Position numbers and translations under genes: made by a program
Shown: in pieces, positions 6,946-9,573 of the stretch
Numbering within the stretch: position 1 is the stretch's first letter
Layout: every line of letters starts with the position of its first letter
Origin: Candidatus Raymondbacteria bacterium RIFOXYA2_FULL_49_16
Lineage (GTDB): Bacteria; Fibrobacterota; OXYB2-FULL-49-7; XYB2-FULL-49-35
DNA: 64,000 nucleotides
Direction: 5' to 3'
Assembly: GCA_001789205.1 (NCBI GenBank)
Contig: MFYT01000009.1
Span: forward strand, 34,854 to 98,853
Notes under the pieces: model-generated
The model's input: the letters and a program-made list of their open reading frames with translations, nothing else
What the model was told of the DNA's origin: nothing
Databases searched by the model: none

Positions 6946-7017
6946 CTTTTTATTCTAAAACATTGATAATACGGTGATGGGTGATGCATATTAAATACAA
7001 ATAAAAAGGGAGGAAAG

Positions 7018-7548
7018 ATGAGCATCCATTATCAAAGTCTTGATACGGCTGTACGAGGATTCATGATCCGTGAGTTAGAGCATGACATAGCAGGCACTTT
7101 GTATGCCAGTCCCAGATTAACAGAAACTGGAATACAAACATGGCCCCAGATACTTAGAGAGGCATTCGAACAGCACGATGATAACTGGATCGCATCCACC
7201 CTTCGCTCTCGCAGTCTCATGCGCACCGAAGAACAACGGCGCAAGCCCAAAGGCGGTTTTACGGTAGCTAAAGTTCCTTACACGGCACCTGATACATTGG
7301 CTGAAGGCGAATTCAACCGATTTTACGCACGTGGTTTATGCGCCGATGTGATAGCTGCTGGTGGAACTGAGGTGGAAGTCTATCGTGGAAAAGAGGTTCA
7401 AAATCCCCGGCCTGAATCACAGGCCATGATTGGCAAGCGACTTCAGGCACAGAAGCTTCTTGACGATCTCCGCACTTCGCCGGGAATGGAAACCGCTCTT
7501 GGGCTGCCGCCAGGTCCGAACTCTGGTCTTACCGTCCGTCGAGTGTAG
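7018..7548 (+). CDS. Conserved hypothetical protein with LGLPPGPNSGL ending
   Basis: A 176-residue soluble protein with GGGAGG just upstream of ATG 7018. The pattern is distinctive: TLYASPRL near residue 28, a middle with RRKPKGGFTVAKVPY, then TLAEGEFNRFYARGLC near 94-110, a basic stretch with NPRPES, and a closing LGLPPGPNSGLTV. I recall the same phrases in scattered hypothetical proteins from diverse bacteria, but no function is assigned to them. There are no membrane segments. It is divergent from the TIGR02147 regulator and may be under the twin palindromes at 6846-6945. The structured GC-rich region begins right after it. A role in mobile-element biology is possible but not shown. Confidence 0.7.
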   Translation: MSIHYQSLDTAVRGFMIRELEHDIAGTLYASPRLTETGIQTWPQILREAFEQHDDNWIASTLRSRSLMRTEEQRRKPKGGFTVAKVPYTAPDTLAEGEFNRFYARGLCADVIAAGGTEVEVYRGKEVQNPRPESQAMIGKRLQAQKLLDDLRTSPGMETALGLPPGPNSGLTVRRV

Positions 7549-7574: not shown

Positions 7575-8470
7575 GTACACTCCCCCGCGTCGTGCATGGT
7601 CATTTTACATAAAACGGGTTACCCGCCCATTGCCCGTCCGTGGGCATGGGTCAAACCTTTCAGGCAGGTAACCTGTTTTATGCAAACCTGCGCTTCAAAG
7701 CCTTGCCCGCCTCTTTCCAGAGTCGAGGCAGGCCCACCCACCACCCTTCAGAGAAGCGAAAACCATGACAGCCGGAGCATAATGAACATGGCGTAGGCTG
7801 GCATGGTTTTCGGCATTGGGAGACAAAAACCGGTCCGCCTGCCTCGCCCGCCTCGCCGATTTGGCGGGCCGGCAAGGCGGGGACTCCGCAAAGGTGAAGC
7901 TTGCTCTCCGCCTGCGGCGGACCCGGTTTTTGCTGGATACGACCGCTTTAGATGCACCAGGATCGAGGAACGGGATCGGGTTAATGTTCTGGGATGTCCG
8001 GAAAATCAGGGAGCCCCTGAGGGGCAGACGGGAAAGGCGCGGCCCGCCTTTCAGGCGAGGCAAGCACCACGTCCGGAGTGTACGCCATAGGCGCACACCT
8101 TTAGCCGTGGGAATATGGGACCCACGGGCCGGGCGTGCCTGGCCCGCCTCTTTCAGAGGCGAGGTAAACAATAAGGCACGGAGAACGAGAGGGGAATCCG
8201 CCTCAGGCGGATGGGGTGAACGTGAGCCCCTCTTCTCAGAGGCGAGGCATGCCGTAGCCCCCTTTGAGAGCTGGTTGCCCCTTTGCGGTATAGACATGGC
8301 ACCCTTACCAAACCAGGGTGTGCAAAGGAAGGGGAATGCAAAGGGGAAATCGAAAAACATTCGATCTGACGGCAGCCGAAGGCTGGCGACTCCTTACGAT
8401 TCAGAACGAATGTGACAAACCTGCGGCGAGGGGGCCCGCCTCGCCTTGACGGCGAGTCGAGGCGGGCGGC
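7575..8470. ncRNA. Candidate large structured RNA or palindrome-rich array (no protein gene)
   Basis: About 0.9 kb without a credible protein gene; ORFs on both strands have composition dictated by GC hairpins. Several long stems can be paired by eye: 7608-7627 with 7663-7682 (about 19 of 20 positions, enclosing another hairpin near 7631-7646); 7757-7773 with 7796-7812; 7825-7839 with 7916-7931; 8357-8363 with 8407-8413, enclosing CAGCC-GAA-GGCTG at 8373-8385; and 8434-8443 with 8458-8467 as a terminator-like end. Between them lie many short CCGCCT/AGGCGG-type hairpins (for example 7907-7921, 8197-8210). The density and nesting suggest an ornate RNA of several hundred bases; the strand is not clear. 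The alternative is a nest of REP-like palindromes inserted over time. It does not match group II intron domain V, RNase P, tmRNA or 6S motifs that I know. Confidence 0.4.
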
Positions 8471-8491
8471 CGTTTGCCAGGGCAGAAAGTG

Positions 8492-8655
8492 GCGCTAAAA
8501 TATACATTTTAACGCCAAAGTTTTAAGCTGTAACTCATTGATAATACAGAGAAACATGTTTTAAGGGAGAAAAACTGAACTGAAAATATACATTTTCGGT
8601 TCAAAAAAAGGCGCTGTAAGTCATTGAGAATCAGAGGTAGTTTTTAAGGGGAAAT
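8492..8655. repeat. Two diverged hairpin repeats with compensated stems
   Basis: Two tandem units. Unit one has a hairpin at 8492-8517 and unit two at 8576-8603. Both have the same loop-proximal core (AAAATATACATTTT), but the outer stems differ completely (GGCG/CGCC versus TGAAC/GTTCA) and both remain paired. Each hairpin is followed by a similar tail: GCTGTAA-C/G-TCATTGA, then AGAG and TTTTAAGGG-A/G-AAA. The unit is about 85 bp. No ORF is present. The stem change with preserved pairing points to a functional RNA or DNA hairpin. Confidence 0.6.
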
Positions 8656-8667
8656 ACGGGGAGCGGG

Positions 8668-9068: not shown

Positions 9069-9573
9069 TTACTCCTGTTCTACGTCCACTAAAAACCTGT
9101 GTGGCGTGGTAATGTCGATGACGTGATCGTATCCGCTGCGGATATTGACTGCGCTGAATCCGTCAATCTTCCGGTCATTCACCAGATGCCTGTAATTGAA
9201 GCTCACAACATGCTTGATGCCGTTTGTCGTTGCGATGGCCACGTGTGCGCAGTCACGGTAAACCCGCAGCGACGTATTGCCGCTGAACTCGCTCTCAATA
9301 TATTGCCTCGCCAGCGCAGTGGGCTTCGTCGTCGATCTCAAGCATGAGCGGTTGGACTCGGTTGATGTGTCCAGCAAGCTTTTTCTGTAAATCCAAGTCA
9401 GGCGTTTCGAGAATTTCGTCGATGACGATGTTTGAAATATAAAGCTCATAATGGCCTGCGCTCATTGTTTTGAAGAACCGTTCAGCAGTGTCCCGCCATT
9501 CCGGACGGTCATCATGCTCGATCTGGTTCCAAACGGAAGTCTCGATATACAGCTTCTTCTTCAAAGTTATCAT
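9069..9573 (-). pseudogene. PIN-domain toxin, frameshifted
   Basis: The two halves of one PIN-domain protein lie in different frames. The first (from ATG 9573) runs KKLYIETSVWNQ, then SNIVIDEILETP, and stops early after EIDDEA. The second frame continues with ALARQYIESE, then YRDCAHVAIATTNG and VSFNYRHLVN, which are standard for this VapC-like subfamily. Removing one base from the GGG at 9321-9323 restores a continuous protein of about 168 residues. The usual first Asp of the active site is Glu here (YIETS). The frameshift may be genuine inactivation or a sequencing error in a short homopolymer. Downstream are the probable antitoxin and a small ORF. Confidence 0.75.

Follow-up and report, generated by a model that had tools for sequence, protein, structure and literature searches.

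A Modular Structured Element Missing from Rfam in the Toxin-Cassette Neighbourhood of a Candidatus Raymondbacteria Genome

Introduction

Integron attC sites and the attP hairpins of CTX phage are recombination sites that work as folded single strands. Group IIC introns take antisense positions at gene ends, and this class C includes introns that target attC sites or terminators. Considered here is a region of about 0.9 kb (positions 7575–8470) on contig MFYT01000009.1 of Candidatus Raymondbacteria bacterium RIFOXYA2_FULL_49_16, part of a 64,000-nucleotide stretch of DNA that was analysed as a whole and is referred to as the window. The initial annotation proposed a giant structured RNA locus, resembling the large ornate bacterial RNAs that occur near phage and mobile genes.

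The region is best read as a new structured element, carried by mobile toxin-cassette units and working in folded, single-stranded form (RNA or ssDNA). With its recombinase and primase neighbours, such an element would provide a testable machine for the exchange of Rhs/polymorphic toxin modules; if it is a transcribed RNA instead, it would represent a new large structured class over several phyla, missing from Rfam. The accessible part of the literature, a weak guide with most subscription journals beyond its coverage, yielded nothing on such an element.

Non-Coding Content, Fold and Modules of the Element

The region is real, non-coding and structured, and it is not a single uniform 0.9-kb RNA. 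The absence of a believable protein gene is borne out by Pfam, which gives no match for the two longest open reading frames (ORFs) of 7575–8470 (7816–8415 on the + strand, 7695–8360 on the - strand); on this ground the protein-coding reading was dropped. A protein match, which the initial annotation had set against its own proposal, was thus found for neither of these ORFs.

Folding of the + strand gives -419.4 kcal/mol versus -360.5 kcal/mol for 20 dinucleotide shuffles (z -8.9). The - strand folds nearly as strongly (z -8.2), because palindromes fold in either direction. Two compact copies, C91 on another contig of the same genome and G044a in a related genome, reach z values of only -3.0 and -3.6, so part of the fold excess in the window is due to REP-like palindromes. 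Similarity to other copies spans about 7582–7691 and 7748–8485. The proposed unit of about 0.9 kb stands as a structured non-coding region but not in its boundaries. The compact copies measure 0.5–0.7 kb.

Comparison of copies gives the module order H1 hairpin, P1 hairpin, X hairpin, M motif, mid domain and core domain (Table 1). Models were made for the core (R1, built from C91 and the two G044 core copies), mid (R2) and P1 (R3).

Table 1. Features of the element and its immediate surroundings (window coordinates).
Feature	Position	Strand	Remarks
176-aa ORF, phrog_30545 (function unassigned)	7018..7548	+	PHROGs E 4.8e-31; no Pfam match; upstream neighbour outside the element
H1, long upstream hairpin	7582..7691	+	self-inverted 7604-7686
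REP-like palindrome (looser)	7700..7733		97% matches at C34 and C39; also in two group II intron loops
P1 hairpin and start of X	7752..7836	+	model R3, 107 bits
X hairpin	7825..7931	+	fold; copies in C91 and C23; loop widened by REP-like palindrome 7847-7881
M motif GGGAGCCCCTGAGGGGCAGACGGGAAAG	8009..8036	+	related motif read in other copies
REP-like palindrome between M and mid	8043..8059		palindrome scan
Mid domain, closing helix and hairpin	8064..8141	+	model R2, 94 bits
REP-like palindrome	8143..8163		shorter form in C91 too
Core domain	8256..8435	+	PA (8257-8264 with 8428-8435), PB, PC; model R1, 56.8 bits over 8272-8352
Window-only insertion in core	8350..8417 (68 nt)	+	self-folding; missing in C91, G044a and G044b
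REP-like palindrome (the earlier 'terminator')	8434..8467		many genome copies; no terminator listed
PIN-type toxin gene, frameshifted	9069..9573	-	3' side, convergent; 59% and 52% identical to a C40 relative in two tblastn frames

The copies of the same genome differ in the modules they hold. C91 runs from P1 through the core; C68 comprises H1, P1, M and a second, inverted H1; C23 ends with its contig inside X; and C40 carries H1, interrupted by a group II intron, and M. H1 matches C68 directly over 7582–7652 and in inverted orientation over 7636–7691, and the H1 module is found at C23 as well. Motifs related to M are read in C91, C68, C40, the three G044 copies (G044a–c) and the 5' end of the copy in genome G435. 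The conserved core segments are AGAGCTGG, CAAAGGA and CCTGCGGC.

The long stems singled out from the sequence fared differently. Those at 7608–7627/7663–7682 (H1), 7757–7773/7796–7812 (P1) and 7825–7839/7916–7931 (X) recur, the first beside Rhs genes and inverted in places, the second in three other copies and the third in C91 and C23. The stem 8357–8363/8407–8413 lies inside the window-only insertion, and the supposed terminator is a dispersed REP-like palindrome at which the terminator scan lists nothing. By this comparison of modules, P1, X and H1 are parts of the element, and the 8357/8407 stem and the 'terminator' are additions peculiar to the window copy. The window region is a copy of a modular folded element swollen by REP palindromes.

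Strict REP-like palindromes occur in the 64-kb window at only four places (7847, 8043, 8143 and 8435), and the genome carries four Y1 (RAYT-type) transposase genes. Simple REP insertions had been named as an outcome that would speak against a structured RNA; REP-like palindromes do occupy loops, but the conserved core is no REP. One such palindrome is shared by two group II introns (L036, 3520–3550; L037, 4058–4087) and the window (7700–7733), and the palindromes look as if they had spread into tolerant loops of structured RNAs. Within H1 of C40 (L066, 1670–3560), a group II intron with a reverse transcriptase lies downstream of an Rhs toxin/immunity module. On the 3' side of the window element (8497–8657), two degenerate AT-rich repeat copies include the palindrome AAAATATACATTTT.

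Homologues and Covariation

The suggested check against Rfam covariance models (GOLLD, ROOL, HEARO, OLE, raiA and group II introns) matched no family, the only Rfam match in the window being a tRNA elsewhere in it. A relaxed search of the window, G044a and C91 copies gave only chance matches below the gathering score. Group II domains I–IV/V–VI are found nowhere in the element; as a positive control, six group II matches (D1-D4, D5-D6) were obtained at L036, L037 and L066 of the same genome. The element probably represents a new structured class, missing from Rfam.

A nucleotide search, likewise suggested, revealed relatives in the same genome (G000) and in the related genome G044. Within G000, blastn detects C91 as a compact relative (290 nt at 80% and 84 nt at 94%). 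It also detects the 5' hairpin on C68 and, where contig C23 ends, the 5' part. C23 and C91 have 134 nt in common at 94.8%, and one Rhs sequence forms the contig end of both C40 and C68. Of the first 60 genomes searched, G044 alone has copies, two in number, and R2 adds a third, core-less copy (G044c).

Five genomes, from four phylum-level groups, contain homologues of the core or of mid. R1 matches 2/167 genomes of the own phylum, 4/391 of a wider set of relatives that includes own-phylum members, and 4/386 around carrier G195, a set overlapping the preceding one. R2 matches 2/167 phylum genomes, and a score of 19.6 bits in G195 is all that it gives outside the phylum; the 5' domains are accordingly seen only within Fibrobacterota, except for the M motif in G435. 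Carriers G252 and G195 fall in two different phylum-level groups, which contain 4 and 3 genomes. G435 lies outside both of these and the own phylum; its copy gives only 25.6 bits with R1, and it has the M motif at its start, a C91-type G-rich motif at its end and a similar gene neighbourhood. Second copies are found in G195 on contig C28 (R1, 43.6 bits), in G252 (22.3 bits, split by an insertion) and in G435 (15.6 bits at E 0.087, recognized mostly by eye). The insertion in G252 (L111, 6600–6890) is about 290 bp long, bears terminal inverted repeats and splits the copy at the conserved AAGAGC.

Several candidates were rejected. GTDB pattern matches L044, L046 and L048 have no R1 match, and L046 is within an apparent coding stretch; R3 matches in 19 other genomes, none above 28.4 bits, were dropped, the two best, which were read, being both of low complexity; and the G530 match (L116, 26.8 bits) lacks the hallmark segments. 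Viral contigs gave no match to the element patterns, and blastn of the element against phages and plasmids gave nothing informative.

Covariation of P1 and mid is modest, with four rows in each alignment. In P1, 64/64 cells are paired and 2/16 pairs are changed on both sides (28/500 shuffles equal); in mid, 98.4% of 64 cells are paired (10/500 shuffles equal) and 2/16 pairs are changed on both sides (347/500 equal). The 5' domain of G044 shows covariation at 13/101 predicted pairs among three sequences. In the core, eight sequences with hand-set arms have 4/8 pairs of PA and 9/13 pairs of PB changed on both sides, and the 164 cells of PA and PB comprise 154 Watson–Crick (WC), 3 GU, 0 AC and 7 other combinations. 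When 3' arms were swapped among these eight sequences, the observed pairing was reached in 2/2000 and 1/2000 trials. Further helices across lineages give 320 WC, 12 GU, 2 AC and 4 other cells, a count in which four pairs enter twice and some core pairs are common to the eight-sequence count. All these counts come from small samples with arms partly hand-set and sequences treated as independent of kinship.

The excess of G-U/G-T over A-C indicates that it is the + strand that folds, as RNA or ssDNA. The core is conserved with compensatory changes across four phylum-level groups, and, within these small numbers, diverse homologues share a covarying secondary structure of the kind expected of a non-coding RNA. 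The homologues, their covariation and the negative Rfam search agree with the initial claim of a large structured element outside known classes, near mobile genes.

Gene Neighbourhood

The element belongs to a mobile neighbourhood of orphan Rhs toxin/immunity and toxin-antitoxin cassettes. Rhs core is encoded at five places of G000, with TIGR03696 in 5/5 proteins; C91, C23 and C68 continue with P1 and C40 with H1 and M, and the fifth place (C29) has no R3 match. The G252 and G195 copies adjoin Rhs-type ORFs, as read from translations without a scan by Rhs models. Genes named by eye next to other copies are of type I restriction (G044b) and toxin-antitoxin-like (G044c) character, or form a helicase/methylase pair with LexA/DinB-like genes (C28 of G195); G044a adjoins a phage-type primase and an integrase (PHROGs). 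An intact relative of the PIN-type gene of the window is located beside the C40 copy (L066:4273-4770).

A DnaG-like primase with an ATPase region and an Xre regulator adjoin the element in G252, G195 and G435, and C91 has Xre and a primase fragment. The primases are 37–45% identical over long stretches, and the recombinases and Xre are homologous. Xer-like tyrosine recombinases form a tandem pair in G435, follow the primase singly in G195 and persist as a remnant in G252, where the Xre/primase/recombinase set consists partly of remnants. Two same-strand copies in G252 flank a block of immunity, Rhs-CT, integrase-remnant and toxin-antitoxin genes, and two oppositely oriented copies in G435 flank the tandem recombinases. 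Between the first G435 copy and these recombinases (L118, 7660–7900), several direct repeats of the AACTACGAGGGC type could be recombinase or replication sites.

Measured at four places (C91, C68 twice and G252), the distance between the element's 3' end and the stop codon of a convergent neighbouring gene is 2, 4, 8 and ~15 nt. The next gene in the window is likewise convergent, about 180 nt off. G044a and G044b are exceptions in which the element reaches the start codon of different co-directional ORFs, with no stop codon.

The primase has relatives on 272 plasmid records by tblastn, 24 of them with at least 80% cover, and at two partial loci in viral contigs. Plasmids of Lonsdalea and Janthinobacterium are annotated with Xre, primase, XerC and toxin or immunity genes; in a third inspected record the primase relative is in a stretch without annotation. 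R1 matched 0/3 of the plasmid records with Xre, primase and XerC relatives at E up to 10, so either the recombinase could work without need for the core or another site is used there. The circular 11.3-kb plasmid of Lonsdalea populi (L121), with Xre, primase, XerC, a nuclease/immunity pair and SymE-type toxins, looks like an excised form of a toxin-cassette unit.

Possible Role of the Element

When toxin cassettes move or are exchanged, the + strand could act in folded, single-stranded form. Most likely, its fold would be the structure that the Xer-like recombinases recognize and recombine at the 3' ends of cassettes, and the primase could refill the single-stranded intermediate in a manner similar to attC or CTX-phage attP. 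Use of the fold on ssDNA by the recombinase is the first choice, with a probability of roughly 0.4; the homologues, covariation, + strand wobbles, gene set, layout of copies and 3' ends near stop codons argue for it. Against it are the plasmid relatives lacking a core, G044a and G044b at start codons, the scores of the recombinases below the integron-integrase cut-off (see below) and the different modules kept by the copies nearest Rhs. Doubtful at present is the wider proposal of a phylum-hopping, integron-independent system in which a giant fold, Xer-like recombinases and a primase-ATPase would shuffle toxin/immunity and toxin-antitoxin cassettes, including Rhs C-terminal modules.

In its size and its conserved unpaired segments the element looks less like attC than like an RNA. 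The closest alternative is that + strand transcription of the mobile elements yields a large ornate non-coding RNA of a new kind, a ribozyme, regulator or RNP scaffold without a role as a DNA site. This tentative possibility, short of even odds, agrees with unpaired segments conserved in four phylum-level groups, a multi-domain fold with covariation in G044, the GU over AC preference on one strand and inserts that spare conserved helices, as in the group II introns of the same genome. It fits less well with the promoter scan, where + strand matches occur only at 6963, 7040, 8474 and 9010 and none just 5' of H1 or P1, with the shuffling and partial loss of modules in C68, C40 and G044c, and with folding of the window on both strands. 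Loss of modules in several copies, the stretch common to C23 and C91 together with the C23 contig end inside the element, and the identical Rhs ends of C40 and C68 could instead reflect a relic or passive repeat: the untranslated part of an old mobile element, which homologous recombination would spread together with Rhs and toxin-antitoxin cassettes and which would serve at most as a bidirectional terminator or recombination homology. Such a relic is improbable, as the compensatory changes seen across phylum-level groups require that pairing be under selection.

A decayed or unusual group II intron without a protein (e.g., an attC- or terminator-targeting class C intron) is disfavoured and very unlikely. 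The antisense gene-end position resembles that of group IIC introns, and the introns of this genome contain the same palindromes, but Rfam recognizes D1-D4/D5-D6 in them and not in the element, even under relaxed settings. Least credible is a plain cluster of REP palindromes with no functional unit, suggested by the confinement of all four strict palindromes to 7847–8467 and by the Y1 transposase genes; it is refuted by the conserved core, which compact homologues such as C91 and G044a keep without most of the palindromes.

Comparison with Known Systems

As with integron attC, cassettes of toxin-antitoxin type have a folded element at their 3' end, antisense to the gene, with tyrosine recombinases nearby and copies between cassettes (G252, C68). 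It differs from attC in its length of 0.5–0.7 kb and its conserved unpaired segments; no canonical attC boxes were found in it by eye, and the recombinases score 143 and 130 bits with TIGR02249, whose cut-off is 265. The plasmid units of Lonsdalea and Janthinobacterium similarly combine regulator, primase and recombinase with toxin, SymE or immunity genes, but without a detectable core. REP/RAYT palindromes are inserted within the element, yet outside its conserved part. Like the group II introns of the same genome, the element has a large fold whose loops accommodate REP-like palindromes; unlike them, it has neither a domain match nor an adjoining reverse transcriptase. GOLLD, ROOL, OLE and HEARO are similar to it in size, multi-domain fold and mobile context, whereas the element stands outside Rfam and is known here from DNA alone.
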